The notes beneath the pieces are model-generated. The model worked only from the letters and a program-made list of their open reading frames with translations. It did no database searches and had not been told where the DNA came from. From a virus, in IMG/VR virus record IMGVR_UViG_3300030061_002429, positions 37,689 to 101,688 of that record: a stretch of DNA of 64,000 nucleotides; one strand, written 5' to 3'. The translations under genes and the position numbers were made by a program. Of this stretch, positions 12,401 to 55,649 are shown piece by piece (position 1 is the stretch's first letter; each line of letters opens with the position of its first letter).

Positions 12401-15400
12401 TGACGGATATTGAAGCGGCTACTCGTGAAATTGTGCGTTTAATCAATCAAGGCAGTGCAAAGAATGGTCGAACTCACGCACGTCGTCCATCTCAACAATA
12501 CCCCGGTGAAAGTGAAAACCTTGACCTTACACGTATTGGTGTACGACAAGACGTGACTTCCGAAGCAAAAGACCCCAGTAGCGCACACATCAATGCTGAT
12601 TTCGCCGCTACGGGTTCAACCTATGACCCTGCACCGTGGTGGTTTGTAGAAGAAGCATTTGATACTCACGACCGTGGTAGCCACATGGGGTATGTACGTG
12701 CTCACATTGGACGTGTTGTTGAAGACATGAATGGTAATGAGGGCTTCTCAATTGTCATTCACTCCACCGTACCCGGTGCATCAGGTCGTAACTTCTGTGT
12801 ATGGCTTGACAACAGTAAGGGTCAATCGAACTACAAGCCGCAATTCCTTATTGGACACGGTGGGCGATTCCGTAACTTTTGGTGTCAGCCTGATGAAACA
12901 CTGGGCGAGAACATGCATCCAGCCCCAATGCCTCTTAACAAGCATGGTCGCCCATTTGCTCCTGTTACAACACTGCGTGAGTATGTACTTCAAGAAGAAC
13001 CCGATGAGCCATTTACCAACAACCATGATGTCGGTAATCGCAAATCAAACAACTCATCAGAAAACCGCAATGTATCGGCACGTATTGGTGGTATCAATCA
13101 CAATACTGTATCGGATGAGTCGTTTGAAGTCCAAGGTCTTTCGACCAATCTTGTCGAAGGATTGCGAGCAGGTAAGCAAGCAGTTGGGCGTATCAACTTT
13201 GGTGGGCTTGTTGCATCAGGAGTACCCGGCTTTGCACCCGATGCAGGTACACATGGCTTTGGTCGAAGAGGTGATGAGCGATTCGATTACAAATACGGTG
13301 AAGCCATTAAGTTTGGTGACAGTGACCCAACTGCTATCGCTTCATACACAGGACATGTCAATCCAAGTGATGTCACAGAAGATGCAATCGGGGATTCACC
13401 ACTATACGGTTTCAGATTTACCGACCATAGAGGTCGTGGGTATGGTGTACGTTATGTCTACCGTAAATTCGGTCAAGCGTTTTCCGATGAAAATACTACA
13501 TTACCTTCGACCTTAGAAGATGAAGTTATCATTCACATCAATGATGACGATGTTTCAATGGGTGGGTTTACTCTTGGTGGTCATATGCTCGGTTGGGGTG
13601 ACCCAACAGGTCGCTTAGATGTATCAGGACTTCAACTCTCTAAATGGCGTGGTAACCAATGGAGAGGCATGTACGCACCAAATGCAGGTGTTGATGCCGA
13701 AGTAACATGGGACGGTACAGCAAACACACTCACTGTTGTGTTTGAAGCACCATTCAATACTGGTGCTTCTTCATCACCATTAGCAAATCACCCTGATTTA
13801 CTTGGCTATCTTGGTTATCCTCATACCAATGGTGTCATTCATCTCCATGACACATTTACGGGTACAACTGATAAAGGGGTTGTTGGAAACGCATTGTCTT
13901 ACGAATCACGTACAGTGGATGATATAACGGGTACACATATCTTTTACGGGGTACGTGGAGAATCCTTTGTATCATCTCACTACGTGAGTAGCGGAACTGT
14001 AACAGATGCAATAAGGACACAACCTCACGCTTCAGACAACACTATGCGTGTGTTACTATCATCACGCATTAACTGGACAACACTGGTCACCGACGAAGTG
14101 CTTGCGTACGCTACCAACGTGGCTATCAATCATCCTAATCCAAATCAAGAAGATGGAATAGCAGTTGATGTACGTCGATTGTATGCGTGTGACGGTCGTA
14201 CGCTCGGTGAATGGGGCGTAGCCGAAGATGCAATCATTGTACGCTCGCACAACCCACAGCGTGGTGCTACGCCAATTTCAAGCATGTTCTCTTCAAAACT
14301 GCATACCGACTATGCTATACAAGCGGCTCATCTTGAGTACGGAGAATATGAAACATTAGCAAAGGACGCTACTGGGATTTACGCATTCAGTTCATCATCC
14401 GATGCTGTGCATCAACCGATAAGTGATGCACTACTTGACAAGAATAGACAAATTGACGCAGGGTATCTTCCAAGAACAGTACTGCAAATTCGCACAAAAG
14501 GACGAGGGTATCACGCCAACACCCCTACGCCTATCCTTGTTGATTCGTTTAACGACCCTGTACCAGTCGATGCGTGGCGAAAGAATCTGAAAGGTATCAC
14601 ATTCACATCAACAAGTGGTGACCATATCTTACCTGCACTTAACAACGAAATGTTGTTGTTCAATCATTATCAACACTCCGCAAAATACTTTTACCATACA
14701 ACTACAGATAACGGTATTTCTCATGCGCTTATTCCAGCAGGGCAAGAAGGTGCTACAATTGACACTTTTGCTAAAGAGGCATCTTTTGGTGAGCAAAAAC
14801 GTTTCTACTTTACCGATGTACAATATGCCTTGCTTAATTCTATACAGGGTACAAACTCGCTCACTCGTGTTGAATGGGGAAGAGATGACTTTGCAAACCA
14901 AGATTGGGTAGACCATTTCACTGCAAATTTCAGCAATGAAGACCACATATTAATGCGGTTTGGTAATCAAAAGATAGGTGGTCGTCGCTCATACGGTGCT
15001 GTTGATGCTGAACCGCTTGTTTACTTCAAAGGCGCAAAAGACAGCAACGACCATTCCGTACCACTGTACTTTGGTGGTGGTTTTAGCGGCGTAGTGCTGG
15101 ACATTAACGACGGTACAGAAAACGATTATTCATCGTTCTATACACACCCGTATTCCAATGGACCAACAGGTACAGCAGGTATACAAAATGCCAACGAGAT
15201 TTCTACTTCATTTGCTATTGTAGACTGCAATGCGTTGCTTGCATTCTTCCCTGCTACACCATTACTAAATCAACACCGTGGGAGTTTAACGCACCCAGTA
15301 GCCAACCGTAACAATGTCCTTTCACCCGATTTAGCGGCTGGAGCACACACAAGACACACCGATACACCTGCACACGTTGTAGCAAGATACACGGCAGGTA

Positions 15401-18400
15401 TCGTACAGCAAAAACCATCACCGCTTGTGTTGCGTGTAGCGAATCCAAATGCACGATACAAAGACACAGATGTGGGTGAAACACACACGACGTACATTAT
15501 CTTTGGTCCCGGTCAAGCCTTCCCGTTTACGGAAATGACAACAGTCAATTCGGATGAACAACCTCACCCCGGTTATGTTGTCACAACTGGTAATACATGG
15601 AGCAAAGTACCTGCTAACAAGAATCTACCAAATGAAATCAAAAACTCCGACGATAAATACGGACCACCATCAAGTACGTATCAATCAGCACGTCAAGTAT
15701 TCCATTGGAACACAACATGGAATTGGTCACCAGCGCAAGGTATACCTAACATTGGCACAACCACTGGTGCTGGACTTATACAACGTCCTGAACATGGTTC
15801 GCACTATGGTGAGCATTTTACAGGACATGTTGCTGTTACGTTAAACAATCTTGAAGATTATCGAAAAGCACATCCGTACAAGTTTGTAGGTGCAATGTAT
15901 TACGGTATCGCTATGGGTGCTGATTTGTGCTTCCACATGGACGGTGGTTATCATCCCGGTGGTTCTTGGATGGACAACCAGTTATCATTTAATCCACCAC
16001 ATGTCATTAGTGATTACAAAATAAATCGAGGACATAATATTGTACACCCATCAGCATTCCGTGTATCGGGTAAACTTGCAAACAATTTTGTTACAGGTGT
16101 AAGTAATGAAAACATTGCTTTATTGTATGAAGATGAGTTCATTGTAGTTGATGCTACACGTTGTCAAAACGGTGAAGAGTTGGCAACCGTACTCGGACAA
16201 TCCATCAATGAGTTCCCCGGAAGCAGTGCTATCAAAGCGATGGGTGGTACATTTGCACCTTCAATGGGTAATGCTATGCGTCAAGACCGATATGGTTGGA
16301 TTGAAATGTCATTTGAATCTTATACTGTAGACGGTCCACCAGTTGCAATTACTTCTTCAAAAACAATTTTGATAGCAAGTATATCAGGAGCATCTCAAGC
16401 AACGCTTGAACAAATACCCGCATGTGGGTGGCTCCGTACACCTGATGGTGGTACAACAAATGTTGGTTCGGGTGACATACCTACGTTTGCTCCATATCAT
16501 AGTCGAGAAGTTGTTTATGATAGCGGTAGTAGTAGTTACAAAGTGCATTTCTTACTTGCCCCAAACCGTTCATCGAGTCTACCTTTAATGGAAAGTCTAC
16601 GCACATATGATGATGTAGAACAAGGAACTTACGCCGCAGGTTTATCACATCCCGATTATGCAGGTGGAAATCCTACTGCTGTTTATGTGTGGTCAAAGGC
16701 AGGTGTGCATCGTTTCAACAATGAAAATGACTCAACTCGTGACCACATGACACAGGTACACTTTAGCGGTATAGTCGATGCTATTGACCGTACACGCCCC
16801 GTAGGTGCAGTAGGATGGGCAGGGGAGCGTTATTCGTACCTTAACTCTCTTAAGGTAGGTTCGGAGCAGTATGGTGCAGGTTTAGGTGCATGGCATCCAA
16901 TGCTTGGATTTTCACCGTATGGACCGAGTAACAGTTGTATGACAGCGTTTGGTCATCTTGCACATAGTAACCCAATTCCTTTTTCTCCTGAAGGAATAAA
17001 CAGAATCAATAATCAAACTATAGTGAGTGATGCCATCATCAGTAACATATATTCATGGAAGTATGGACTTCCGTCTACTGATGATTATTATGCAACAGAT
17101 TACGCTTTTGAACAGGCTGATAACTCCATTTTAGGAAAACAACCAGTAACATATCGTGATAATAGTGATGACACATTCGCACTACCACGTAGCCTTCACA
17201 TGCCTCAAGGTGTGTACAGTCGAGCGTTTGTTGTTATATCGTACGAAAGCGAAATGGCACTTGTAGCGAAGCACGACAGGGACGGTATCAAAGCAACAGG
17301 TGACTGGCTTTCTGTATCATCGAAAGTCAATGTTGATAGCGTAATCCCTGCAACAGCCATCACGTTTGCAGGTACTACACGATGGGATGAGCGTATTCAC
17401 AATCCTGAACGATTTACAGCACCCGCTAATGCTGGACCCAACGTAGAAGCATTGGTGAGAAAGGACGGTTCTGACCCGTTTACAATGCCTCAAGCGGAGT
17501 ACCCAAGTGCATTCAATTTTGGAGCACCATTGGCAAATGATGAAGATTTATACAACGCTGAACCTTGTTTTAATGAAACGGGTGATTTGTTTTATGATAT
17601 AGACATTAGCCCCGGTGCTTTCCATTTAGAAACAAGTGCGGGTGTTGAACGTAATTTACAACTTAAATACATTACAGGCAGTACAGATGCATCAATTACT
17701 TCTCGTTACACTATAAGCGGTGCTCGTGACTTTTGGGGCGGTGATTTGAATGCATTCCGTCTTGCTGAACATTCACCAGCAAGGAATTTCTCAATTGAAA
17801 ACATTGTATGGAAACGTATGGACGGTGGCAACTTATCACTCCCTGCTGTCAATGCTCGTGGTCTTGGTGCAGTACCGTTTATCACTCGTGTATCGGGCGG
17901 TACAGCCTACACCACTGGTGAAAAATTGTTTGGTAATTGTCGGTTCTCATTTGAAACAACGAACTCGGCAATGTACCCAATCATACAGGCACAGGAGTTG
18001 AGTCATCCACAAATTGCGGCTCGACATCCCGATGAGTTACGTAACGTGCTTGAGATACCGAATGAAGAGTTGCAATTCTTAGCCATGTCTGTTGTGGACG
18101 ACACTGGTCAAGAACATTCAATCGAAGGTGGTTCGCCGTTTGGTACAATCATACGTTCATTCAAACAAATTTCAGACCGTACAGCCGAGGGGTTAGCACC
18201 ATCGGAAGCGGGAAGCGGTGTTGAGCCAAACTTGAAGATTCAACTACCTGATGCTGATGCTATTCCCGGTAACATCATCGTACGTAGTGGATTTGACCGT
18301 CTACAAGCCTATCAGAACGAAACAATGGGTACGGGCGGTATGCTACGTCCAAACATCGAAACGGGCATAGAGGGCATCTTTACAGACGCTACAGACGGTC

Positions 18401-21400
18401 CACGCTTAGGACCGACGTTTAGTGACCATGAATACGACCATATCAGTCAAAACTCCGTAGGCGAAGCCTTCCCCGATATGACACGAAAGGGTTGGAAGTC
18501 GGCAACCAACAATGCACCACTAAAGACATCGTACGAACTGCATGACCGAGCCTTGTTCTTCCACATTACCAAGAACGGTAACTCGCACACGCATCGCTAT
18601 CCTACAATCTACACACACGATAATGGTGTCATCAACAACGCTCTCACGGCACAGACGTATTCAGGCACTACTTTAACAGTGAATGCAACTATCAATACAA
18701 CATTGTATCGTGACGCATATGGTGATTCACAGAAAGACGATGGTGGTACACGTCGATTTTTACGCATATACGACGACGCAACTGGTGAAAGTGGTGTTGC
18801 CTCGTTCACTGGAATATCGACCAATACATTCACTGGTTGTGTAGGTGATTCAGCATTCGATGCTATTGTTGCTAAGAGCAGTATAACGTCATTCAGCGTC
18901 GTGCCTTCATACTACGTACCTGCTGGTAGTAACCGATTCTTTGCGGCACGTCGAATCCGTGACCATGCGGAAGTAAGCGGTAACAGCCCTGACATGGCAC
19001 ACTCGATGTATGTGACTGGACATGGTGGACCGAATGTATTGTGTTATGATGCATACAAAAAGACACGACTTACACCAATGGCAATTCCACGTATGGGTCA
19101 TCACTTCGTTAATGCTACGCAAGCCATGTTACCCGGACATTGGGCGCACCCTGCGTATCAAGGATTGTACTTTAAGCACCGAGCCGACCGTTCAGCAACG
19201 CAAAAGAATCTTGAGCAAGACCTCATTCAAAGCACTGCTCTCGATACCGATAGGTCGAACTTACCAGCAGATACCCAACGTAAGTTACCAGTCTATGACC
19301 CTATGATTACATTCGGCGCAATGACTGCTACACCAAGTGGTCCGAGTGATATTCACGGCGGTGGATTTACACTCATGTTTGAAACCAAAGTCAAGTACGA
19401 TGGCTATGGTGTGTTGGCTTCAAAAGGTCAAGCGGGTGTTGTAAACTCGAAAGGTGGTCATACTATTGTATTGGAAGCAGGTGCTACATATACCCTTAAG
19501 CATCACTTCCCTGACCCATCAGAAGTTGGTGCGTACCAAATCATCATTCAACCTAACGTACACAAGTCACAGTTTTACGGCTACCACGAAAACGGCAGTG
19601 CTACTGGACTACCTGATGGTTCGGTTAATGAATTAACTGGACAACAAGTAGCGTTAGTTATCGGTATACGTGAGCCTGATTCAGCCACAGGTGGACTTGG
19701 TTTGGTCTTAGCCGAAGCAACTATGGCCGATGTACGTGGTTGTGAAGTGTTCATCAATGAGGTTATGCTTGACCATGACCCTGATTATGGTGGACAACTG
19801 GCAAACATACCTCCGCTATTGCTGTACAATGCGTTAGGTGTACAAGGTACAGAAGCACCTGCATTTACACGACGAAGCCTACCGTATCACCCCGGTATGT
19901 TTGTCGATGCTACACCCGGCTTTACAACCAACATACCGTGGTGGTCAATCGTTCACAAAATAAGTCCTGAAGATTCATCAGCAGTAGGATTCCGTCATTT
20001 GACATGGCACAGAATTGATAATTACTACGAGTTCTTACGTGCTGGTGCTGGAAGCATTGCGTGTCAATTGACTCTTGCAGGTTATCCGTCCAACTATCCT
20101 GACTTCTATTCGACCGTATTAGAAAATGTTAGCCTCTCACCTGTTGCTGTGGTAAAGTCGGTGTCTTCAACGCTTATCACTGTCGATGATGCAAGAGGCT
20201 TTCCTAAAGTGCCATACTATGGTATGAAGTTGGAATACACTGATGCTGACGGTATTCGACGTACACATACATACACTGAACGCAGTGGTAATGATGCAAC
20301 ATACATGAACAAACCGTATAGATTCACCATTACTGCATCTTCAAATTTCACCAATAACCTTACTGTGGGAACAAAGATTCGCTTGACTCGTGCATATGAT
20401 TTCCGCCCTGCTGGAAAATTGATGAAGGAATCGAGGTCAAGTATTTTTACACGCATGTTACCTCAATTACTACAAGGTAGTCGTGATACAAACAGCCTTC
20501 ACATGGCTGATGCATATCTATGTTTATGGAATCCAAACCTTGGCCGACCGCACACATTTTATTCAGATGGAAGTCGTACATGGTTGAGTCCAACTGGTGA
20601 CAGGGCAGTTAATCGAAAACCACTGAACAGCCTACCTGAACACTATGAAACCATCCATTACCATGATGCAACATACTACAACAGTTTAGGTCCGTTTACT
20701 TTTACAATGAATACAACAAGACCGATTCAACCATTAGTTACACACGCACTAAGTGATAGGATAATCGTATCAACTGCGAGTAATGTCATAACAACGGCAC
20801 ATTCGCCACCATCATTACCAAATGATACGATTCAAATTGAAAATGAAATTTTTGTTGTTGTGAGCGATACAGGTGCTTTGCTAACTGTGAATCGTGACAT
20901 AACGCATCTTACAAATGGTAGTAAGATATACATTCATGGAGATGGGGATGCAGTAACAGCAGGTGGGTTGCATAGTGATTACACGGCTCAAGGTGGTACA
21001 GATGTCATGCTCAATCATTACTGGCCGTGTGGTAGTCGTGGTGGGCCGCTTACCAGTCGCCTTGATGGGTATGGGTATGTAAGCACTGCGTGGGATTATC
21101 CACAAGAGTATACATCAGACGGTCCTGTATGGGAAGACCAAGATGATACTGGTTCATACGTAGTAAGCAGTGGTATCACAAAAACATCGTATGATTCAAT
21201 CAGTAGCCCTACACGACCTCGACCCTTTGGTTACCGCTTCGGATTGCGACAACCCTACAATAAACCACAGTGGGCTATGTACGGTGCTCGTGCATATCGA
21301 GAAACGCCTATCTCTTCATCAAACACCATTGCGGGGTATCAGCATGGTCCTTTGGTGCAATTAGAAGAAAGAACTACTGGAAACAAGTGGGAATACGTTG

Positions 21401-23208
21401 GTGGAAGTGGTTTATCAAATACCGACTTTAATGCCACATACGTTGGTATTATGGAGCGTCAAACAAACTTCTCCGCTATGCTCGGTGTAGACAAACCTGA
21501 ATGGCAAGTACGATACAGTAACGGTATGCGTATGACACGAGCGTTTGGTTGCCCAGTACGTGTATTACGTAACGCAAACACCGTCATACGTGATTGGTGG
21601 GGTGACCCGCTTGGTAAGAACATCTCAAAGGTAGATGAAGCAGTAAAGTATTATCTTGTTGATTGGTGGGGCAACACTCGTGGTGAAGATGTACGACGTT
21701 ATCCTGTGCGTGGTTTTGGTATACGCCCTGCTTGGGATTGCAGTGACGTATACGAATATGACCGCACCAACGACCTAACTCCATACGCACGTCTATGGAA
21801 CGGCGGTAATCCACTGGTCAATCTCAAGACGCTTGTTGATTTTACAAGTTCAGACCTAACGGCCACCGATGTGAACTTCCCACGTATGGCGGGACGAATC
21901 AACAACGTGAACAACAACGATTCAGCAAATCCAGTCGATGTGTTCTTCCCAACCAACCCACATCGTGTCGGTGACATGGGTAACGGTCGAGGTGTACGCT
22001 ATCCGACCATGTTCAACGAAGATGTACTCACAGACCTTGATGAGCCGTATCACGCCACAGGGGTCGTTCTTTCGCACCATACTGCCGAGCCGAACACATC
22101 AGACGGGTACGTGCGCCCACGTAACGATGTACTGCAACCCAACGAAGTACTGCGTGGTATCAGTGCTCGGTTGGGTGTCGATGAAGATGGACTGCTCAAA
22201 CCCGAAGCCGTAGCAAGCGACCGTGTAGAAGACTTCACTGGTGACACACCGCACAAGGATGCTATCAGTCGGTCAAGCCCACGTATCGGTATTGACAGCG
22301 AGAACATCGAGGGTGTAGATGACAACCTTATTGCTATCAACACAGAAGCACACAGTCTTCACACAGACCGCAACGTAGGACAGCGAGTGGTTATGGAGGG
22401 TGGCTTGACCGCAGGTTCACAGACGCTTACCGATTACGACCTTACTGGTTTGACCTTCGCTGCACAGCCACAGGGTGGTGCAATGAGATTGACCCACACC
22501 TCCAACTTCAACCCAATGGGTGGTACATACCTCGCTGAAACCCGCAACTTCCTTGCACCTATCAGTGACAAAGATTGGGGCGGTATAAGTGGGTCAAACA
22601 AGACATCAAACCCGTACGAAACAAACGTACACGTAAGCAACAAGCAAACAAACTTGACCGACAAGAAAGTTACTTTCATGCTTAGACCAGTGCGATTGCT
22701 TGACAAGCAACACGTTGAGATGTTCCGACCAAACAACAACCTGCACTCATCATCCCCGCAATACGGCGCAAACTACTTTTCGGCTACTGCTGGTGGTAAG
22801 TATGGTATGTATGTGTATGAAGTAGAAAATGGTCGAGCAAGTTCAGGCTACTACATCCGTAGCACTAACCCCGACACCAATCCACCTTATGCGCCGTTGT
22901 ATGTCATGGACATTAGTGGTGACGAGTCTGTACCAGTAAGCAAAGGGCCAAAGTTGCCCGGTATCAGTGAAACATCATTCGATAGTACAAAACTCAACAA
23001 TGCGGTCACTCGTATTGTCATCAGCGAAAACACGCTCCAACACTATCGTGCTGATGCGGCACGTCGTCGCTCCCGCATTGACAGTGATGAAACAACAAAG
23101 CGTATGGACTTCTCCGTAGTACCACGATTCTCACAGGCACTTCATCCAAAAGGACATAAAGGTGATGTAACCTACAACACATCAGACCACACAGGTGATG
23201 GCGCATGA
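6478..23208 (+). CDS. Giant 5,576-residue tail/adhesion protein with LamG-like domains
   Basis: One uninterrupted frame of 16.7 kb, a quarter of the window. Residues about 10-245 look like a LamG/concanavalin-type jelly roll: FDGVSDSIIIPQ, then FVIEAWVIPDCGGIIAQRDG, IVASYRGGNIELYVNTDMVA and a closing GLYRFEEP. A second LamG-like region is near residues 4295-4450 (FTLMFETKVKYDGYGVLASK ... GCEVFINEVML). Most of the rest is Gly/Ser/Thr/His/Asn-rich, beta-like and unassigned, with scattered small beta modules (about 1,360-1,500 and 4,540-4,650). There is no signal peptide, transmembrane segment or obvious protease motif. Its place after the distal tail gene and before hub and fibre genes suggests a tail-tip or side-fibre adhesin that binds the host surface. 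Large host-recognition proteins exist in other phages, but this size is extreme. Stop overlaps the next ATG (ATGA). Confidence 0.75.
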   Translation: MVAIGRTSHAFFFDGVSDSIIIPQSTFNSTGIERNGVKAPLSALSDVELQNTIGNISYSDFVIEAWVIPDCGGIIAQRDGQFQLELGTVDTPGPAVFHLTMQTAFGDKTITLNTAFDKTTRWDGVVYPSQEYGGIHDSYNRFDTSNYGEASGLNFNNRPLYHIVASYRGGNIELYVNTDMVASKKVPIEYRVKQVDGHVYVGGKGGQFRGAIESIHFSNSKSNNIFQPDFPTLGNASTGLYRFEEPLDIVEKVYTMNAVTAATDGSTKTITIGTADAQELIAKLTGKAYDSSSPIATFTESPYSMGNYEVNDFYSTPGTTAKLSIAHTPYNLLINAGSLNRNTFKPNQKPPERVRLHSIDGSNGNISISSIHVDFVNGTSGLRGLLHSRTADIDNYFVVVGADLLIDNGTGKPYQPPHYGTQIFDRTGQMVLDESDSESHGLVYSSRMATTTSDPKNPFAVVWPTSIDTLFQIGHSGRHALSHITGHDYMRRLPVPNDMTVDQVMSGSSDIVTMRYDSSQRNLKNTISINKNVDAYSPNLKGSVKSFVNTSTVASIVDNGLPASVKELIAIGGAGFDVRPFFLKGPVPQSYDEESRLFHLRPEKESRIALLKVPALQSSHNLAPFVEIHYNAIDLTGASMGISGPMLMVEKTVPAGSFDLGSGTRVIDVITSDLANTVLYSAGGVIDFTTGYMGSNNVLSKPNSLVGDTTGGNDNDSELDFSTTPAVYTPVSDVNAIPASPPKVIKKSHVSSNHNSVYHKLYFTPSTNIITEEDQTFYRKIKPLTTKSSTGEFDIGPVNTRSHMFEMFDIIDNQSTNDNRTAILYVQPSNKKRTNQFYNLSTATNGQATRMHILQLITRGRIRSINQVVDGETNEIDTEIVIRGISDEYLSQNIDVLGSGSPDSHVVKEIEPNAPVVTVTLGGPGQGAVNTKPTFDPSPLMRLPGSTRRMCAVQGVEVFATNSSTSGVTDSLTIRPLNNQSPDLLSWGTYCFPKIGRVYLASGASALYYAKTGSGFAFENSATAISERRFLLSDGTAVESFYVWCKANGVITQSGATVTEEVSDYFYNDDNFNDDSLTQDGSTVNDRLFQSMDGVTHDYQLGSQYSSTRAMVEIPFFPQQFFDHENENVFPGPDNSMKIHIDATYTAHTWNPTPVGRRADDVQVADRTASSAYSYNINNQDYVSSTTITKVEYDSSGKFYKIYVSHPSLFPPVDTSVFEYTNMKKLPRYRRAFLANGMWCVYRNDPSSDGYLRVDEHESATSGVISGSYAKGFFEGAVPQTALFIAQGYRSENLLPIASDNETPSSDYEARSPYYYDNANVKTQGGNLDYGLRQYVSAIEIKAGPLVNPHAPRVQSGVAQSTILSVKGTSGKYVFNLEDASSFPVLTEYTKDVTNLLAIDEGDLMYIAEVRLADGTTHEMVYFGKLLEDKSENTIICKSANTSLTGLENATLSIKRVGRALHSAASVSTATDNERKALTFLPDTSEQWTVAVAATSGTTTTIEITTTASDRLASSNTIGLNIRKDDELYIDDVSHNDVDYLGKVSSIVSNVVGGTTNTVITLTTNNACDVAVGDKIRVSIQSVVAEDQDGILNATWLNPYATGGMRNGDTVWMNMTMNNPHAVEGLFCKSRGVYNEHLVWKGFNGGRGSLTSRPRDSIPLENFLIGDTCLETAQNLAQHINKTIEINYESMLGSTYTDIPRVAYVDPYLATEGHARVLLYDVAHDREFIAFHDLHMQVQSSAATPNIGFGRDIVHAGGVLKLDRFLVSHNGGAPHYFTTQIDVANGFPSENKYLRSTQQSKFIESAYAHDIANSSENFLIQDPTTRGNNIQLKGKGHGHFVHSGLMYGFNSNIYAVSDNALPRVEPAVASVYWANEKHKNSRITSRDAFVKAVKNHRLSKNPSTFSFRDASTLFDTPDGTRCISAFLSLKGIRSSTLDLSGHEEDRLEHLPHWTEMDFVRRMVIDCGEVGVKEGVTDIEAATREIVRLINQGSAKNGRTHARRPSQQYPGESENLDLTRIGVRQDVTSEAKDPSSAHINADFAATGSTYDPAPWWFVEEAFDTHDRGSHMGYVRAHIGRVVEDMNGNEGFSIVIHSTVPGASGRNFCVWLDNSKGQSNYKPQFLIGHGGRFRNFWCQPDETLGENMHPAPMPLNKHGRPFAPVTTLREYVLQEEPDEPFTNNHDVGNRKSNNSSENRNVSARIGGINHNTVSDESFEVQGLSTNLVEGLRAGKQAVGRINFGGLVASGVPGFAPDAGTHGFGRRGDERFDYKYGEAIKFGDSDPTAIASYTGHVNPSDVTEDAIGDSPLYGFRFTDHRGRGYGVRYVYRKFGQAFSDENTTLPSTLEDEVIIHINDDDVSMGGFTLGGHMLGWGDPTGRLDVSGLQLSKWRGNQWRGMYAPNAGVDAEVTWDGTANTLTVVFEAPFNTGASSSPLANHPDLLGYLGYPHTNGVIHLHDTFTGTTDKGVVGNALSYESRTVDDITGTHIFYGVRGESFVSSHYVSSGTVTDAIRTQPHASDNTMRVLLSSRINWTTLVTDEVLAYATNVAINHPNPNQEDGIAVDVRRLYACDGRTLGEWGVAEDAIIVRSHNPQRGATPISSMFSSKLHTDYAIQAAHLEYGEYETLAKDATGIYAFSSSSDAVHQPISDALLDKNRQIDAGYLPRTVLQIRTKGRGYHANTPTPILVDSFNDPVPVDAWRKNLKGITFTSTSGDHILPALNNEMLLFNHYQHSAKYFYHTTTDNGISHALIPAGQEGATIDTFAKEASFGEQKRFYFTDVQYALLNSIQGTNSLTRVEWGRDDFANQDWVDHFTANFSNEDHILMRFGNQKIGGRRSYGAVDAEPLVYFKGAKDSNDHSVPLYFGGGFSGVVLDINDGTENDYSSFYTHPYSNGPTGTAGIQNANEISTSFAIVDCNALLAFFPATPLLNQHRGSLTHPVANRNNVLSPDLAAGAHTRHTDTPAHVVARYTAGIVQQKPSPLVLRVANPNARYKDTDVGETHTTYIIFGPGQAFPFTEMTTVNSDEQPHPGYVVTTGNTWSKVPANKNLPNEIKNSDDKYGPPSSTYQSARQVFHWNTTWNWSPAQGIPNIGTTTGAGLIQRPEHGSHYGEHFTGHVAVTLNNLEDYRKAHPYKFVGAMYYGIAMGADLCFHMDGGYHPGGSWMDNQLSFNPPHVISDYKINRGHNIVHPSAFRVSGKLANNFVTGVSNENIALLYEDEFIVVDATRCQNGEELATVLGQSINEFPGSSAIKAMGGTFAPSMGNAMRQDRYGWIEMSFESYTVDGPPVAITSSKTILIASISGASQATLEQIPACGWLRTPDGGTTNVGSGDIPTFAPYHSREVVYDSGSSSYKVHFLLAPNRSSSLPLMESLRTYDDVEQGTYAAGLSHPDYAGGNPTAVYVWSKAGVHRFNNENDSTRDHMTQVHFSGIVDAIDRTRPVGAVGWAGERYSYLNSLKVGSEQYGAGLGAWHPMLGFSPYGPSNSCMTAFGHLAHSNPIPFSPEGINRINNQTIVSDAIISNIYSWKYGLPSTDDYYATDYAFEQADNSILGKQPVTYRDNSDDTFALPRSLHMPQGVYSRAFVVISYESEMALVAKHDRDGIKATGDWLSVSSKVNVDSVIPATAITFAGTTRWDERIHNPERFTAPANAGPNVEALVRKDGSDPFTMPQAEYPSAFNFGAPLANDEDLYNAEPCFNETGDLFYDIDISPGAFHLETSAGVERNLQLKYITGSTDASITSRYTISGARDFWGGDLNAFRLAEHSPARNFSIENIVWKRMDGGNLSLPAVNARGLGAVPFITRVSGGTAYTTGEKLFGNCRFSFETTNSAMYPIIQAQELSHPQIAARHPDELRNVLEIPNEELQFLAMSVVDDTGQEHSIEGGSPFGTIIRSFKQISDRTAEGLAPSEAGSGVEPNLKIQLPDADAIPGNIIVRSGFDRLQAYQNETMGTGGMLRPNIETGIEGIFTDATDGPRLGPTFSDHEYDHISQNSVGEAFPDMTRKGWKSATNNAPLKTSYELHDRALFFHITKNGNSHTHRYPTIYTHDNGVINNALTAQTYSGTTLTVNATINTTLYRDAYGDSQKDDGGTRRFLRIYDDATGESGVASFTGISTNTFTGCVGDSAFDAIVAKSSITSFSVVPSYYVPAGSNRFFAARRIRDHAEVSGNSPDMAHSMYVTGHGGPNVLCYDAYKKTRLTPMAIPRMGHHFVNATQAMLPGHWAHPAYQGLYFKHRADRSATQKNLEQDLIQSTALDTDRSNLPADTQRKLPVYDPMITFGAMTATPSGPSDIHGGGFTLMFETKVKYDGYGVLASKGQAGVVNSKGGHTIVLEAGATYTLKHHFPDPSEVGAYQIIIQPNVHKSQFYGYHENGSATGLPDGSVNELTGQQVALVIGIREPDSATGGLGLVLAEATMADVRGCEVFINEVMLDHDPDYGGQLANIPPLLLYNALGVQGTEAPAFTRRSLPYHPGMFVDATPGFTTNIPWWSIVHKISPEDSSAVGFRHLTWHRIDNYYEFLRAGAGSIACQLTLAGYPSNYPDFYSTVLENVSLSPVAVVKSVSSTLITVDDARGFPKVPYYGMKLEYTDADGIRRTHTYTERSGNDATYMNKPYRFTITASSNFTNNLTVGTKIRLTRAYDFRPAGKLMKESRSSIFTRMLPQLLQGSRDTNSLHMADAYLCLWNPNLGRPHTFYSDGSRTWLSPTGDRAVNRKPLNSLPEHYETIHYHDATYYNSLGPFTFTMNTTRPIQPLVTHALSDRIIVSTASNVITTAHSPPSLPNDTIQIENEIFVVVSDTGALLTVNRDITHLTNGSKIYIHGDGDAVTAGGLHSDYTAQGGTDVMLNHYWPCGSRGGPLTSRLDGYGYVSTAWDYPQEYTSDGPVWEDQDDTGSYVVSSGITKTSYDSISSPTRPRPFGYRFGLRQPYNKPQWAMYGARAYRETPISSSNTIAGYQHGPLVQLEERTTGNKWEYVGGSGLSNTDFNATYVGIMERQTNFSAMLGVDKPEWQVRYSNGMRMTRAFGCPVRVLRNANTVIRDWWGDPLGKNISKVDEAVKYYLVDWWGNTRGEDVRRYPVRGFGIRPAWDCSDVYEYDRTNDLTPYARLWNGGNPLVNLKTLVDFTSSDLTATDVNFPRMAGRINNVNNNDSANPVDVFFPTNPHRVGDMGNGRGVRYPTMFNEDVLTDLDEPYHATGVVLSHHTAEPNTSDGYVRPRNDVLQPNEVLRGISARLGVDEDGLLKPEAVASDRVEDFTGDTPHKDAISRSSPRIGIDSENIEGVDDNLIAINTEAHSLHTDRNVGQRVVMEGGLTAGSQTLTDYDLTGLTFAAQPQGGAMRLTHTSNFNPMGGTYLAETRNFLAPISDKDWGGISGSNKTSNPYETNVHVSNKQTNLTDKKVTFMLRPVRLLDKQHVEMFRPNNNLHSSSPQYGANYFSATAGGKYGMYVYEVENGRASSGYYIRSTNPDTNPPYAPLYVMDISGDESVPVSKGPKLPGISETSFDSTKLNNAVTRIVISENTLQHYRADAARRRSRIDSDETTKRMDFSVVPRFSQALHPKGHKGDVTYNTSDHTGDGA

Positions 23209-28362: not shown

Positions 28363-28519
28363 ACGCACTGTCAATCCAAAAGTGACCACACTCTTTGCAT
28401 TGCAACATGTGCAGTCGTTCTTTTTCACCGTCAATGTAGCGAGCAGTGAGCCTTCTCGGTATGTGCCAATGTGTGCATCTTCGGCACTTGACCTTCAAGC
28501 GGTCAAGCAAACGCCCCAT
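28346..28519 (-). CDS. Small zinc-ribbon protein
   Basis: 57 residues, starting at ATG 28519, which overlaps the chaperonin stop (TGATG). Two CxxC knuckles, CRRC (residues 12-15) and CKEC (41-44), flank a basic stretch, giving a four-cysteine zinc ribbon that probably binds nucleic acid or protein. It is the last gene of the helicase-exonuclease-chaperonin operon and its 3' end overlaps the convergent membrane-peptide gene. Confidence 0.7.
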   Translation of the reverse strand: MGRLLDRLKVKCRRCTHWHIPRRLTARYIDGEKERLHMLQCKECGHFWIDSAFNRQS

Positions 28520-30039
28520 CACTCAACGCCTCGTCGTGCAATGATGTCATCAATGCGTAGGATAGCATTCGTGACTTCAGCCGCACTAAGCACTGCTTGA
28601 CGTACGAGTTCAGCAGGTTCAAGCACGCCCAACTTGAGCATGTCGCACACGCCTCCGTTCTCAACATCAGGACCAACCGTGAGGTCGCCGTCCATCAGAC
28701 GGTGACGTAGTTCAAGGATGGTATCGAGTGGGTCATGACCTGCATTCTCGGCAATGGTCGCAGGGATGGTTTCTAAGGCATCAGCAAACGCCTCAATAGC
28801 CATCTGTGCTCTACCCCCTACCTGTGCCGCATGTTGGCGTAGATAGACGGCCATACGAGCGTAGGCATTGCCTCCGCCCACGACGACCTTCTCATCACCA
28901 ATTACCATTGATACGACACCAAGAGCGTCATCAAATCCACGCTCGACTTCTTCCAGTGTGTGCGTGGTTGCACCACGCAAGATAAGCGTAGCCTCTTTGC
29001 TCTCCTTGTGATTTGAATGCACGAACAAATACCATATGTCGTTGTGCATCTCACGTACGACCTTTGTCATTGTCATGTCTTCGATGTCATCAACGGTTTG
29101 GTAGATGACACTGTTTGTAGCACGCTTCATGGCACGCATAGCGGATTCAGGCGTACGGCGTACAACATAGATACCGTTCTTCTTGAGGTACGCACAAACG
29201 TGGTCATTGACCCCATCACGTACGAAAACAATACCTACTTTACCTTTGAAAGCATCAACAATCTCTTTGGCTCTTGAAATCAAATCAGCCTTACCTGCCG
29301 ATTTGTATGTACTGTATGACTGTGCATCGAGTTGTACTTGCACGTTCTCTTCGTTCTTTTCAACATCAAGGCCAGTATTGATGAGCATCATGTGGTAGTA
29401 CTCGCTTGCATCAGACTCATCTTCAATCACGAAGTCCTTGCTCACAATGACACCGTTGAACAGGGATGAGTCATTGACCGAGCCACCCGGAAACGACACC
29501 ACACGCACAGACTTCGCATCACCCGCTTGCTCAACAGCCGATACACACAGTTCAGCCACTTGGTCAAGCGAATGCTCAAGTGTCTTACCAGTGATTGCTG
29601 TCTTAGCAACGGACAGTGTTTCATCTCGCCCTTCGGCAAGCATTGTAATTTCATCTTGCAAGTACTTGGTTGCCATTTGTGAAGCCTCGTGATACCCACG
29701 ACAAATCACATTCGGGTGCAAACCTTTAGCGAACAATGCTTCGGTATGTCCAAGCAATGCCCCTGAAAGTACGACTGTACTTGTTGTTCCGTCGTAGCAT
29801 AGGTTTTCTTGTGTCTTTGCTACTTCGGCAATCATCTTCCCGCCCGGATGTGAAACATCGACTTCACGGAGGATGGTAGCCCCGTCATTCGTTACGATGA
29901 CGTTGCCGTGTCCATCGACCAACATCTTGTCCATACCCATCGGTCCAAGCGTAGACTTGACGGTTTCAGCAATCGTCCTTGCCGCCCGTATGTTCATCGC
30001 TTGTGCATTCGTTCTTGTTTGTTCTGTATCTTTCTTCAA
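28519..30039 (-). CDS. Group II chaperonin (thermosome/CCT-like subunit)
   Basis: 506 residues. It has the TCP-1/thermosome signatures: TLGPMGMDKMLV (30-41), VTNDGATIL (49-57), the ATPase loop YDGTTSTV (82-89, catalytic Asp83 kept), a GGGNAYARMAVYLR segment and AENAGHDPLD near residue 430. Length is slightly below cellular subunits (about 540), and the usual Gly/Met-rich C-terminal tail is absent. It should form double-ring folding chambers, alone or mixed with host subunits; the giant tail or capsid proteins are plausible clients. The start is TTG 30039, overlapping the exonuclease stop (TTGA), with GAGGTGA upstream. Viral thermosomes are reported from magroviruses. Confidence 0.92.
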   Translation of the reverse strand: MKKDTEQTRTNAQAMNIRAARTIAETVKSTLGPMGMDKMLVDGHGNVIVTNDGATILREVDVSHPGGKMIAEVAKTQENLCYDGTTSTVVLSGALLGHTEALFAKGLHPNVICRGYHEASQMATKYLQDEITMLAEGRDETLSVAKTAITGKTLEHSLDQVAELCVSAVEQAGDAKSVRVVSFPGGSVNDSSLFNGVIVSKDFVIEDESDASEYYHMMLINTGLDVEKNEENVQVQLDAQSYSTYKSAGKADLISRAKEIVDAFKGKVGIVFVRDGVNDHVCAYLKKNGIYVVRRTPESAMRAMKRATNSVIYQTVDDIEDMTMTKVVREMHNDIWYLFVHSNHKESKEATLILRGATTHTLEEVERGFDDALGVVSMVIGDEKVVVGGGNAYARMAVYLRQHAAQVGGRAQMAIEAFADALETIPATIAENAGHDPLDTILELRHRLMDGDLTVGPDVENGGVCDMLKLGVLEPAELVRQAVLSAAEVTNAILRIDDIIARRGVE

Positions 30040-50128: not shown

Positions 50129-50280
50129 GCCGTCACCTCCATGCACTCACACTCTAAACCATAACCTACAATTGTAGCAAGAGGATAGTAAGTAATGGGG
50201 CAACCAGTACAACCTTTGCATTTCAGTAGTTGCACCTTTGCATGGTGTTCCCAATACTCATCATCAAAACATTCATTCAC
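50125..50280 (-). CDS. 51-residue cysteine-rich protein ending EVTA
   Basis: Starts at GTG 50280 within the shared junction, ends CECMEVTA. CKGCTGC and CEC give five cysteines in 30 residues, suggesting a metal-binding mini-domain. GTGA coupling on both sides. Function unknown. Confidence 0.6.
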   Translation of the reverse strand: MNECFDDEYWEHHAKVQLLKCKGCTGCPITYYPLATIVGYGLECECMEVTA

Positions 50281-50783
50281 GCCGTCACCTCCACGCCTCG
50301 CCACCAGTCGGGGGCAGGTGTACCCTTCTCCCACTTGGCGAACTGCTTGCTGTGGTAGTAGGCTTGGTATGCTACAACCGCATCGTCATTACGATACTCG
50401 TCGGGCATGGCCTGTGCGAATGGTGTGAGTTCATCATACGGAACAATACCATGTAGTGCATACATTATACCTATAGGTTCATGACACGCATGTTGTTTAC
50501 CGAATCGCATACTGTATTCTAAACATAGTGCCAAACCATGTTGGGCCAACCATCTAAAATTAGCACCGGAGTCACCAGCCCATACTGTGCATGGGTGATG
50601 CTTGTAGCCACCCTTGTAGGGCTTACCTGCTTTGGTGAGTGGCATGTCCTCATCAGTCGCACCATGTCGGCGCAGGGCTGATGCCATCATCTGTGCGGCC
50701 TCTACACACATCTTGGGGATGTGCTTGTCGCAGTGCATTCGTGCCGCAGTGATTGGGTTTCTGTCTAATACAAATATGTTCAT
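50277..50783 (-). CDS. Conserved phage protein, MNIFVLD...HCDKH family
   Basis: 168 residues from ATG 50783 (GGAGGGGAAC upstream). It begins MNIFVLDRNPITAARMHCDK, followed by HIPKMCVEAAQMM, then GYKHHPCTVWAGDSGANFRW and LALCLEYSMRFGKQHAC. The family is widespread in phages and is sometimes labelled a pyrimidine-dimer glycosylase; I see no T4 DenV-like catalytic N-terminus, so the enzyme name is doubtful. Cys/His residues suggest metal binding. Ends RGVEVTA. Confidence 0.82.
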   Translation of the reverse strand: MNIFVLDRNPITAARMHCDKHIPKMCVEAAQMMASALRRHGATDEDMPLTKAGKPYKGGYKHHPCTVWAGDSGANFRWLAQHGLALCLEYSMRFGKQHACHEPIGIMYALHGIVPYDELTPFAQAMPDEYRNDDAVVAYQAYYHSKQFAKWEKGTPAPDWWRGVEVTA

Positions 50784-50911
50784 TCGTTCCCCTCCGTACA
50801 GTATGGACAACAAATGTAACCAGCATCCATATCAAACGACTTGTCGCACCACGGACACAGCATAATCGGTATCAACACTGGTACGTGCTTTGGTGGGTGT
50901 TTTTTCTTCAT
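50780..50911 (-). CDS. 43-residue zinc-ribbon peptide
   Basis: MKKKHPPKHVPVLIPIMLCP then WCDKSFDMDAGY and ICCPYC. The pattern CPWC...CCPYC is a minimal zinc ribbon. The stop overlaps the next ATG (GAATGA), supporting a real gene. Function unknown. Confidence 0.62.
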   Translation of the reverse strand: MKKKHPPKHVPVLIPIMLCPWCDKSFDMDAGYICCPYCTEGNE

Positions 50912-52626: not shown

Positions 52627-52857
52627 CTAATCAAGTGGATGTTCTATATTCAGGTCACCCAGTACCCATCGCAACGCCTTGACCACGCCTTCCAGTGCTT
52701 TGTAGTTTCTCATGTGAAACATACGCTTGTCCCTCGTGCATGATTGCATTGCTGTGTAATGTTTATTTTGTAATCGCTCGGCTTTGTCGAGCATCTCTTC
52801 AATCTCTACCCACGTTCTTTCGTAGGTGAAGTGTTCACTGTCTTGATGGTCGTTCAT
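52627..52857 (-). CDS. Small helical phage protein
   Basis: 76 residues from ATG 52857 (GGAAGTAGA upstream; ATGA overlap). YERTWVEIEEMLDKAERLQN and MRNYKALEGVVKALRWVLGD then NIEHPLD match a recurrent phage family. Helical and charged, function unknown. It closes the paralogous array. Confidence 0.68.
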   Translation of the reverse strand: MNDHQDSEHFTYERTWVEIEEMLDKAERLQNKHYTAMQSCTRDKRMFHMRNYKALEGVVKALRWVLGDLNIEHPLD

Positions 52858-53180
52858 TCTACTTCCGCCTTCCATTCGCTTTGTTCTTCATCACCATACT
52901 GTACCATGACACGATGGCCTTTTTCAAGCATCCATGTTTCACAGTCTTCGTAACAACGAGCATCCCTGTAATCATAGAAGGCTTGCACGATTCGTCGCTC
53001 AATACGCAGTGCTTCACGCAACCGCTTGACTTCTGCAAGAAGTTTTGGTGCGTCATTCAGTAGTGCGGAGGTAGCCTTGTGTTGTTCAATCGTTTCAGCG
53101 TTTTTCAGCATCCATTTAGACCAAGCCCAAGTCTGTCCTTCACTCGCTAAGTGTCCTTCGTATTTGTCTGTGTCAATCAT
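52854..53180 (-). CDS. MIDTDKYEGH family member 1 (Ea22-like)
   Basis: 108 residues. It begins MIDTDKYEGHLASEGQTWAW, has the conserved core SALLNDAPKLLAEVKRLREA, and then a variable coiled C-terminus (EQSEWKAEVE). Seven such genes lie in tandem at 52854-55047; N-terminal DNA is nearly identical. The format (short N-tag, variable middle, conserved xDAPxLLxEVKRLRE helix) is like phage Ead/Ea22 proteins, whose function is unclear. It overlaps its neighbours by a few bases. Confidence 0.82.
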   Translation of the reverse strand: MIDTDKYEGHLASEGQTWAWSKWMLKNAETIEQHKATSALLNDAPKLLAEVKRLREALRIERRIVQAFYDYRDARCYEDCETWMLEKGHRVMVQYGDEEQSEWKAEVE

Positions 53181-53518
53181 TCTTCCTCATCCTCGTGGTA
53201 ACCTATCATATCTCTCAAGCAATCAGTGGCATGTTGTATGTCACGAATGTAGTGGTTGTCCATGCTGTCAATCATGTCCACAATCTGCTCACGCAACCGC
53301 TTGACTTCTTGAAGGAGTAGTGGTGCGTCTTGTAAGAGTTGAATGTTAGGGTAATCAGCGTGAGTGAAGTCAATGTCAGTGAAGTAAGATGTTTCAGTCA
53401 CCAGCACTCCGTTTGCATCTACGATGTCAAGGTGAGAGCCTTCGTCATCGTATGGTTGTCCTTCGGCAGTTCGCCACGGCCCCAACCTGTGTCCTTCGTA
53501 TTTGTCTGTGTCAATCAT
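53177..53518 (-). CDS. MIDTDKYEGH family member 2
   Basis: 113 residues: MIDTDKYEGHRLGPWRTAEG, an acidic middle (HLDIVDANGVLVTETSYFTD), then LLQDAPLLLQEVKRLREQIV and a tail rich in Asp/Glu (GYHEDEEE). The HxxGPW module after the tag is typical of the group. ATG overlaps the upstream stop by 8 bp. Confidence 0.82.
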   Translation of the reverse strand: MIDTDKYEGHRLGPWRTAEGQPYDDEGSHLDIVDANGVLVTETSYFTDIDFTHADYPNIQLLQDAPLLLQEVKRLREQIVDMIDSMDNHYIRDIQHATDCLRDMIGYHEDEEE

Positions 53519-53825
53519 GTTTCGTCATCTCCTTGTATGTTCCCCCATAAAGCCATGTGCATTTCATAGAATCGCATCCACGAATCGCTTCATGTAATCG
53601 CTCATTCTCTTCACGCAACCGCTTGACTTCGGCAAGAAGTTTTGGTGCGTCTGCCATAAGTTGTTGAGTTGGCGTATCATCATTCCAATCTTCGCCAACA
53701 AGTTCAACAGTACATGGCTCTCCTAAAACCTGTACTATTTCTTTCCCTATTGCATTGTATAAGCAAAAGTAATCCCAATGCCACGGTCCTTCTGTATGTC
53801 CTTCGTATTTGTCTGTGTCAATCAT
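53511..53825 (-). CDS. MIDTDKYEGH family member 3
   Basis: 104 residues: MIDTDKYEGHTEGPWHWDYF, then a beta-like variable part, QLMADAPKLLAEVKRLREEN and a C-terminal helix ending KEMTKHD. The conserved helix is placed later than in member 1, showing that the tag and helix are kept while the spacer varies. Confidence 0.82.
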   Translation of the reverse strand: MIDTDKYEGHTEGPWHWDYFCLYNAIGKEIVQVLGEPCTVELVGEDWNDDTPTQQLMADAPKLLAEVKRLREENERLHEAIRGCDSMKCTWLYGGTYKEMTKHD

Positions 53826-53829
53826 TCAA

Positions 53830-54291
53830 TCACCTCTTTCGTGCAACTTCACTTGGTTCACCCCAATGCTTTACCCAAGCATCTCGGTTAGTAGTAATGT
53901 ATCTCTCAATGAGTTGAACAGTTCCTTCTTCGTCATAATCCCAATAGTGGGTTTCGGGATAGAGCCATACTTCCATAGCGTAGTGCCATGTGTTATCTCC
54001 TACCTGCGCCCTCATGTGTTCGGCTTGTGTGATTGCATAGTCTTTCAACTGATACTTCTTGACTTCTTGAAGGATTAGTGGTGCGTCAGCGATGAGTTGT
54101 GCGTCGGCCTTAGACAATGTATTCTTACGCACACCGAGCATACATTTATCGAGGCGTGTAACATTGATGGATTGAGAGTTGTTCTTGTGTGTAGGAAGAA
54201 GAACCTCCCATCCAAAACCGTGTGTGTCTGTACCATCGTATGCGTACCATTCTCCTTCTGTATGTCCTTCGTATTTGTCTGTGTCAATCAT
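53830..54291 (-). CDS. MIDTDKYEGH family member 4 (longest)
   Basis: 153 residues: tag MIDTDKYEGHTEGEWYAYDG, a long variable middle (including CMLGVRKNTLS), the motif QLIADAPLILQEVKKYQLKD, where RLRE is degraded to KYQL, and an added Trp/Tyr-rich C-terminal domain (HYWDYDEEGTVQLIERYITT). The C-terminal extension is unique in the array and may be a fused extra domain. Confidence 0.8.
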   Translation of the reverse strand: MIDTDKYEGHTEGEWYAYDGTDTHGFGWEVLLPTHKNNSQSINVTRLDKCMLGVRKNTLSKADAQLIADAPLILQEVKKYQLKDYAITQAEHMRAQVGDNTWHYAMEVWLYPETHYWDYDEEGTVQLIERYITTNRDAWVKHWGEPSEVARKR

Positions 54292-54620
54292 TCTTCTTCA
54301 CCCCAAACATAGTCATCAAAGTTCATCATCGCTGAATCATTGTGGAGAACTTGTTTGTAAGCCCATTTAGTCGCCCTTGATAACTGTTCACTCAACCTCT
54401 TGATGTATGCTTCTCGTCCGTCTAATTCTTCACGCAATCGCTTGACTTCCTCAAGGAGAAGTGGTGAGTCGGCTATAAGATGAGTATTGATTTCTTCAAT
54501 CACAGTCGCAATTTTACCACCTACATTCCCTATTTTGCAAGCGTCTTGAGCATGGATGCGCTCTCCATGAATCTCCCACGGCGCAGGTGTATGTCCTTCG
54601 TATTTGTCTGTGTCAATCAT
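54288..54620 (-). CDS. MIDTDKYEGH family member 5
   Basis: 110 residues: MIDTDKYEGHTPAPWEIHGE, variable middle with a VGGKIATVIEEINTHL segment, then IADSPLLLEEVKRLREELDG and an acidic tail. Coupled by ATGA to both neighbours. Confidence 0.82.
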   Translation of the reverse strand: MIDTDKYEGHTPAPWEIHGERIHAQDACKIGNVGGKIATVIEEINTHLIADSPLLLEEVKRLREELDGREAYIKRLSEQLSRATKWAYKQVLHNDSAMMNFDDYVWGEEE

Positions 54621-54847
54621 TCTTCTTCACTCCTATACTCTTCATCGTAAGCACCATATCCAACGGCTTTCTCAACCATGTCCCTTAGTCGCTCATTTTC
54701 TTCACGCAGTCGCTTGTACGCTTCAAGGAGAAGTGGTGCGTCATTCAGTAGTGCATAAGTAGCAACCAGTTCTTTTCCATCATTCACAACCACTATCTCA
54801 TAAGTGTATTCGGTTGAGTGTCCGTCGTATTTGTTTGTGTCAATCAT
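54617..54847 (-). CDS. MIDTDKYEGH family member 6 (short)
   Basis: 76 residues: MIDTNKYDGHSTEYTYEIVV, then ALLNDAPLLLEAYKRLREEN, a coiled segment and the acidic end YRSEEE. A shortened variant missing most of the spacer, retaining tag and helix. Confidence 0.8.
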   Translation of the reverse strand: MIDTNKYDGHSTEYTYEIVVVNDGKELVATYALLNDAPLLLEAYKRLREENERLRDMVEKAVGYGAYDEEYRSEEE

Positions 54848-55047
54848 TCAATCATCACCTTCAAAGCACCTTTGATTCCCAATAAAATATCTTCATCCTC
54901 ATAAGTGATAACTGCATCAAGATATTCATACAATGTCTTCACTCCTTTTCGCAACCGCTTGACTTCTGCGAGCAGGTCAAGTGCCAACACATTGTTTCTC
55001 CCATCATCATCTTTGAGAATGCGCTCGTATTCGTCTGTGTCAATCAT
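54844..55047 (-). CDS. MIDTDKYEGH family member 7 (most diverged)
   Basis: 67 residues: MIDTDEYERILKDDDGRNNV, LLAEVKRLRKGVKTLYEYLD, then IKGALKVMIE. The tag and the EVKRLR helix remain; the PW and DAP elements are lost. It is the first gene translated of the seven and may be the oldest or most degraded copy. Confidence 0.75.
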   Translation of the reverse strand: MIDTDEYERILKDDDGRNNVLALDLLAEVKRLRKGVKTLYEYLDAVITYEDEDILLGIKGALKVMIE

Positions 55048-55649
55048 TCTTCTTCACCTTTTGATACACCTTGTGTTGGTCGCTTACCTTCACACTGAAT
55101 GTACGCATTGTTTTGTTCAACGAAGTTAATCATTTCACTGCACTTCTTGAAATCAATATCAAGTCGCCATGTGTTTGAGAAGTTGAACTTGAACACATGC
55201 TCAAGGTTTGGATTCATCACTGCATTGTTTGAGCCGTCAATGACCAACTGGTAGCCATCTTCGTACTTTTCAACACTGATGTTACGCACGTAACATACTG
55301 TATCTGATGCAAACGACGTATGTGTTGCTTTGAGAGCATGTAAATATGCCCCCACATCAGGAGGCATGGTGTACTTACCTGCGAAACCGTATTCACGGTT
55401 GATGGTAACTTCACCAAAGCCCTGTACATGCATGACACCAGTGCCCTCGCTACTGATTGTCCTTACCTGTAAGGTCGGTTCGTTCACTTGTTTTGCTTCT
55501 TTGTATTGTTCGTCTATTGTTTGTTCTCCCATGTTGTTCACTTCCATATTCATTGGCATTGGCACAGAAAATAGTTTCGCAATGAAATCTTGTGCATCTG
55601 CAATTTGTTCGGTCATTTCTTTTGTTTCGTCTTCATTGTTTTCGGTCAT
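55044..55649 (-). CDS. Hypothetical protein upstream of the paralogous array
   Basis: 201 residues, acidic N-terminus (TENNEDETKEMTEQIADAQD), a beta-rich centre (TGVMHVQGFGEVTINREYGF) and C-terminal strands (VFKFNFSNTWRLDIDFKKCS), ending KGEEE. It overlaps the array by ATGA. No motif; could be a small capsid-like or regulatory protein, but nothing is diagnostic. Confidence 0.6.
   Translation of the reverse strand: MTENNEDETKEMTEQIADAQDFIAKLFSVPMPMNMEVNNMGEQTIDEQYKEAKQVNEPTLQVRTISSEGTGVMHVQGFGEVTINREYGFAGKYTMPPDVGAYLHALKATHTSFASDTVCYVRNISVEKYEDGYQLVIDGSNNAVMNPNLEHVFKFNFSNTWRLDIDFKKCSEMINFVEQNNAYIQCEGKRPTQGVSKGEEE

Follow-up and report, generated by a model that had tools for sequence, protein, structure and literature searches.

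Scattered breakpoints are the usual evidence from which mosaicism in phages is inferred. Recombination is also described as building phage proteins from exchangeable fragments, a domain mosaicism that concerns large protein families and domains (PMC10684548). Among single genes, ea22 of the lambdoid phages is a small early-region gene encoding a coiled coil with a swapped, divergent C-terminal part and constant last residues; each phage has one such gene, and neither a constant DNA start tag nor a tandem array is described for it (PMC7093339). At the DNA level, the start-associated sequences of Cluster K mycobacteriophages (SAS and ESAS) place a repeated motif of unknown function at the starts of unrelated genes; the SAS measures 13 bp, immediately precedes the start, and may contain inverted repeats (PMC3203893).

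We analyzed a viral locus that is like each of these systems in part. The window, which is the whole stretch of 64,000 nt under analysis (positions 37,689 to 101,688 of the record IMGVR_UViG_3300030061_002429), contains a tandem array of short genes with a coiled-coil-like helix and exchangeable parts. Unlike the large families and domains of described domain mosaicism, the array has two fixed DNA joints and parts that assort nearly independently. The Pfam profile Ead_Ea22 matched neither 85 relatives (E ≤ 0.01) nor the seven genes of the window (E ≤ 1), at filters that can miss weak matches. The tagged genes also differ from the SAS arrangement in that the block at their starts extends into the coding sequence and a second block lies inside the genes; no GGGATAGGAGCCC-like SAS 13-mer was found upstream of the starts, the conserved block being GA-ATGATTGACACAGACAAATACGAAGGA, from –2 downstream. 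A further likeness, the sequence match to PHROG 1273, says nothing on shuffling. Phage mosaicism, ea22, and the start-associated sequences make the arrangement known in kind, and its two-joint combinatorial form appears to be new.

The Array and Its Genomic Context

Seven ORFs lie head to tail on the minus strand of the window, from 55047 to 52854. In the order of transcription they encode proteins of 67 (54844..55047), 76 (54617..54847), 110 (54288..54620), 153 (53830..54291), 104 (53511..53825), 113 (53177..53518), and 108 aa (52854..53180). Five of the six junctions overlap by 4 or 8 nt, and the sole nonoverlapping one is a 4-nt gap between 54291-53830 and 53825-53511. A 26-nt tag is identical in five of the seven members and has two mismatches in the 76-aa and three in the 67-aa member; its seven occurrences in the whole 101,688-bp record are confined to the array, and a reversed-pattern control gave none. 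The ORFs and the tag confirm the seven tandem genes with a shared MIDTDKYEGH start and near-identical DNA that the initial annotation had described. The constant 5′ block reaches from –2 to about +30 of the start (GA ATGATTGACACAGACAAATACGAAGGACAC), and the copy at 54591..54622 (minus strand), one of seven, overlaps the stop of the upstream gene.

The same annotation placed a DAPxLLxEVKRLRE helix in each gene, which is true of most members: the motif is complete in the proteins of 108, 113, and 104 aa (encoded on the minus strand, as are those that follow, at 53013-53054, 53288-53329, and 53610-53651) and nearly complete in those of 110 aa (DSPLLLEEVKRLRE; 54429-54470) and 76 aa (DAPLLLEAYKRLRE; 54701-54742), but it is degenerate in the 153-aa protein, the earlier "member 4" (DAPLILQEVKKYQLK; 54046-54087), and reduced to LLAEVKRLRK in the 67-aa protein (54946-54975). 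A point absent from that description is that the helix block is conserved as DNA too, forming a constant internal block of about 42 nt of coding sequence (DAPLLLAEVKRLRE, with the 110-aa gene as the example). Both repeated DNA blocks were recovered independently, D1 in seven copies and D2 to D4 in five to six. The middles of the array members are not alignable with each other.

On either side of the array are conserved minus-strand genes, a 201-aa gene upstream (55044..55649), with orthologues in the related contigs L177 and L178, and a MNDHQDSEHF gene downstream (52627..52875). The polymerases of L177 and L178 are ∼95% identical to that of the window, and between the same two flanks we found seven genes with seven tags in the window, three genes with two tags in L178, and two genes with no tag in L177. 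The replication-gene cluster thus has a fixed slot for short genes that are translationally coupled and of which zero to seven are tagged.

The source record (101.7 kb) has two opposed gene blocks, one of which holds both the array and the replication genes, all on the same strand. The virus encodes a family B DNA polymerase whose best-covered matches among phages were to HCTV-5 and other haloviruses (E = 2e-37), an RFC small subunit of the clamp loader (best PDB match 1iqp, E = 1.3e-33), a strongly matching Cpn60/TCP1 chaperonin (28519-30039 of the window, E = 1.4e-124), an SNF2 helicase, and the portal and head protease of a tailed-virus head module. This gene set fits the published description of the Poseidoniales magroviruses (PMC10768690; PMC10160649), with which the record shares a PolB related to haloarchaeal tailed viruses, its own clamp loader and chaperonin, the 90- to 100-kb genome size class, two opposed gene clusters, and a tailed-virus head module. 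As far as this evidence goes, the virus appears to be a magrovirus-like tailed virus, and its host is probably found among the marine Poseidoniales archaea. No recombinase was identified; the virus does encode a PD-(D/E)XK nuclease and a DUF932 protein, and the idea of the latter as an annealing protein was dropped, as nothing was found linking DUF932 to annealing. Elsewhere in the window, positions 6478-23208 form a single plus-strand ORF of 5576 aa that adjoins a tail-tape-measure-like gene. The DNA polymerase is encoded in two separate ORFs in the related records G023, G025, and G029, and the genome map of Aoguangviridae likewise labels PolB as N- and C-terminal parts.

A peptide-based search of viral contigs retrieved 78 loci, and the exact 30-nt tag was present in 43 stretches. 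Among 51 records, comprising the window's own and 50 relatives, the polymerase of the window had a homologue in 49, with 29 to 100% identity over the main matches; the records contained zero to seven tags, all on one strand within each record. The fetched loci, all from metagenome contigs, provided 206 distinct complete tagged genes across 81 contigs, counts that are not phylogenetically independent. The helix was found in 150 of these genes, and the full motif was lacking in 56. At least 27 tagged genes have no helix motif at all and keep the tag codons unchanged; the helix-less genes include small proteins with zinc-ribbon-like cysteine pairs, for which the Pfam matches were weak. Annotated phages gave no DNA match, and the protein searches returned three weak mycobacteriophage matches at E = 0.06 or none. 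In bacterial and archaeal genomes a single contig was matched, from a Maricaulis metagenome-assembled genome (L140, NZMJ01000078.1); it has several tagged genes and modules common to the viruses and is probably a misbinned viral contig. The number of tagged genes per contig reached a maximum of seven, with exactly seven in seven contigs and six in none. As a pattern search found six tags in one record, the gap at six is probably due to chance or method.

For the relatives, Pfam and NCBIfam gave nothing credible, and the PHROG families matched were all of unknown function. One of them, PHROG 1273, was matched by 56 of 85 relatives (best E = 7e-11), and its match in the 110-aa member of the array (E = 3e-7) spans residues 9-71, taking in the last part of the tag together with the middle and the helix. 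By eye, one tagged protein in L119 looked GroES-like, but Pfam did not support this. An AlphaFold model was confident only for a long helix beginning near the constant block (pLDDT 90 to 98 in the block, pTM 0.48 for the whole model), and a structure search with it returned no meaningful match. We guess that the genes encode small coiled-coil adaptors whose ends can change, perhaps directed against host or rival-virus targets.

Reassortment of Middles and C-Termini

We clustered the middles and the C-termini separately. Given that short modules make such clustering coarse, 27 of the 30 multimember middle clusters were joined to at least two C-terminal clusters, and 22 of the 25 multimember C-terminal clusters to more than one middle cluster. 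Among 145 genes, 101 pairs shared the same middle, 72 the same C-terminus, and 3 both, with 0.66 expected under random pairing; one of the 3 arises from an alternative start within a single gene. The picture was unchanged at four clustering thresholds. Members of the array show the same pattern. The middle of the 108-aa gene falls in a cluster whose 10 genes have 10 C-termini, all different, and the middle of the 153-aa gene is found again in L178 (4528-4848), joined to another C-terminus. The 113-aa gene has its middle in common with L010 and its C-terminal module in common with L001, L028, and L140. The C-terminal module of the 110-aa gene recurs in L004, L042, and L140, each time with another middle, and that of the 104-aa gene is also found in L004 (4152-4433), again behind another middle.

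The positions of the changeovers coincide with the constant blocks. Between genes sharing a C-terminus, nucleotide identity rises from 0.28, the level of chance, to 0.94 on entry into the helix block; between genes sharing a middle, the drop is from 0.76 to 0.37 and takes no more than 12 nt at the block's far edge. Identity is also at chance upstream of the tag and past the next start. Middles and C-termini thus reassort almost independently, with breakpoints falling in both constant blocks.

Modules are shared mainly across viruses. A 105-nt middle is 100% identical between two viruses whose polymerases are 42% identical in amino acids, many modules are 90 to 97% identical at a polymerase identity of 37 to 51%, and module-sharing pairs within one virus are nearly absent (1/104 and 2/80). 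The expectation of a diversifying array with traces of recombination is strongly supported, as copy number turns over and modules reassort. The initial annotation had taken middles conserved across distant relatives as a sign of fixed, specialized roles that would refute diversification, and half of this sign is present. Single middles are indeed near-identical in distant viruses, but the C-termini joined to them differ, so the variety arises by recombination of a shared pool rather than by fast divergence in place.

Constancy of the Blocks as DNA

For tag codons 2 to 9, counted in the 176 tags of the peptide-retrieved loci, a single codon was used in 92 to 100% of the genes keeping the residue, compared with 22 to 58% in the background. 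The fixation stops at codon 10, and third positions are no less fixed than the other two. The polymerase that each virus encodes serves as the fairest control: where the polymerases of a virus pair were less than 45% identical in amino acids, residues shared by both viruses had the same codon at 86 to 100% of tag sites vs. 29 to 56% of polymerase sites. The polymerase codons are saturated, and tag codons 2 to 9 are almost fixed. In the helix block, codon use relative to background (in parentheses) was GCA.98 (.34), CCA.94 (.30), GTC.90 (.21), TTG.88 (.20), CGT.88 (.22), and CGG.69 (.05); the fixation thus resembles that of the tag and extends to the rare CGG, at 5% in the background, although leucine codons are looser. 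A binomial test of codon fixation treated genes as independent, and its P values are not to be taken literally.

An omega-like ratio computed from single-nucleotide changes in the tag was 0.25 for codons 2 to 7, where retrieval favored the conserved peptide, 0.36 for codons 2 to 9, and 0.78 for codons 8 and 9, which retrieval left unconstrained. Overall, a DNA- or RNA-level constraint or homogenization of the tag is clear, and some peptide-level selection is possible. Inverted repeats, a feature of integron-like cassettes, were absent at the blocks.

The 5′ block consists of a Shine–Dalgarno-like stretch, the overlapping stop and start, and about nine codons. Most tag starts overlap the stop of the upstream gene, sharing its TGA as ATGA in 148 cases and as ATGATTGA in 22. 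We considered an RNA hairpin at the tag and found the opposite: folding is weaker than at other starts with a Shine–Dalgarno stretch and ATGA (–3.4 vs. –5.8 kcal/mol, P = 2.4e-5, the controls being coupled starts filtered for the Shine–Dalgarno stretch). No other start 18-mer recurs nearly as often as that of the tag, which has 98 divergent continuations, and numerous coupled starts of these viruses are without it. The 5′ block probably doubles as a ribosome-loading start. At gene ends in the array and related loci, the C-terminal tails EEE, VIE, MIE, and KND are recurrent because they are spelled out by the ribosome-binding stretch and by the start of the gene that follows; for lambda Ea22 (PMC7093339), the K/RGE tail might be explained in this way too.

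Discussion

We consider the array to be a cassette locus, with a probability of roughly 0.7, in which the short constant DNA blocks are recombination joints and the 5′ block is probably also a ribosome-loading start. During co-infection, ordinary homologous or annealing recombination may use the blocks as short homologies, as the products of exchange suggest. Exchange at the blocks would keep them alike and would let every front module be joined in frame to every back module. As a portable start, the unstructured 5′ block could allow a new module to be expressed at once, and the presumed coiled-coil adaptors might, as a guess, counter or redirect changing host or rival-virus targets. Minimal pairing segments have been reported as 23 to 27 bp for Red-beta and 31 to 34 bp for RecA (PMC3945230), and block lengths of about 30 and 42 nt suit these values. 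The blocks may either be selected as joints or merely be kept alike by exchange itself. A dedicated diversity-generating arrangement of archaeal viruses, with blocks maintained by selection as joints, two-module proteins built in many combinations from a pool common to distantly related viruses, and the 5′ joint as a portable translation start, is a tentative extension that we regard as rather unlikely.

The constant start could also be an RNA-level translation or regulatory element, such as an operator or an SAS-like enhancer, that selection maintains at gene starts, with shuffling as a side effect. The block is always at a start, beside a Shine–Dalgarno-like stretch and a stop overlap, the tag is present on helix-less genes as well, its weak folding sets it apart from other coupled starts, and its recurrence before so many divergent continuations points in the same direction. 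Such an element would leave the second, internal block and its breakpoints unexplained, and many coupled starts in the same viruses do without the tag. We place this explanation somewhat below even odds, and it is compatible with the cassette locus. Conservation of the tag for its amino acids, as a docking or sorting signal, would account for the same decapeptide on unlike proteins and for the ratios of 0.25 and 0.36. The codon tests set back a peptide-only explanation, however: third positions are as fixed as the others, codon identity in the tag far exceeds that at polymerase residues of the same viruses, and the ratio is 0.78 where retrieval had no influence. A peptide signal is accordingly improbable.

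Simple duplication in tandem, with later divergence driven by positive selection, was the process proposed in the initial annotation, and it agrees with the tandem layout and the shared ends. The relatives of the modules are found in other viruses and hardly ever in the same array, however, and the tag is also carried by genes without the helix. Repeated duplication is thus the wrong process for an array in which unlike middles and C-termini are exchanged between constant blocks, largely across viruses, and we consider this explanation very improbable. Finally, the mosaic genes might be assembly chimeras joined at short repeats, given that all sequences are metagenome contigs and the blocks are repeats. 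Yet eleven genes with tag and helix are identical over their full length in two contigs, although for some of these pairs one sample may have been assembled twice. The blocks, at about 30 to 42 nt, are not fully identical, and the words used in the final step of assembly are usually longer. With reading frames intact across the joints and the tags of each record on one strand, assembly chimeras have the least probability of all.

In this system, a few hundred short genes are enough to count the joints, the parts, and a pairing that is nearly random. A long-standing question therefore becomes directly testable: whether short, conserved boundaries are selected to promote exchange or are leftovers of recombination. 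The array also points to a gene set that evolves fast and probably faces the host or rivals, in what appear to be uncultured marine archaeal viruses.

We also observed a conserved 181-aa gene (MNIFVLDTNPITAA) at 5245-5790 of L177 and 672-1217 of L178, with related DNA near 50277-50813 of the window. Its last part is a repeated stretch (GTGGCGAGGCGTGGAGGT...), after which the sequence continues in at least nine different ways, and the end of this gene is possibly a second exchange hotspot.
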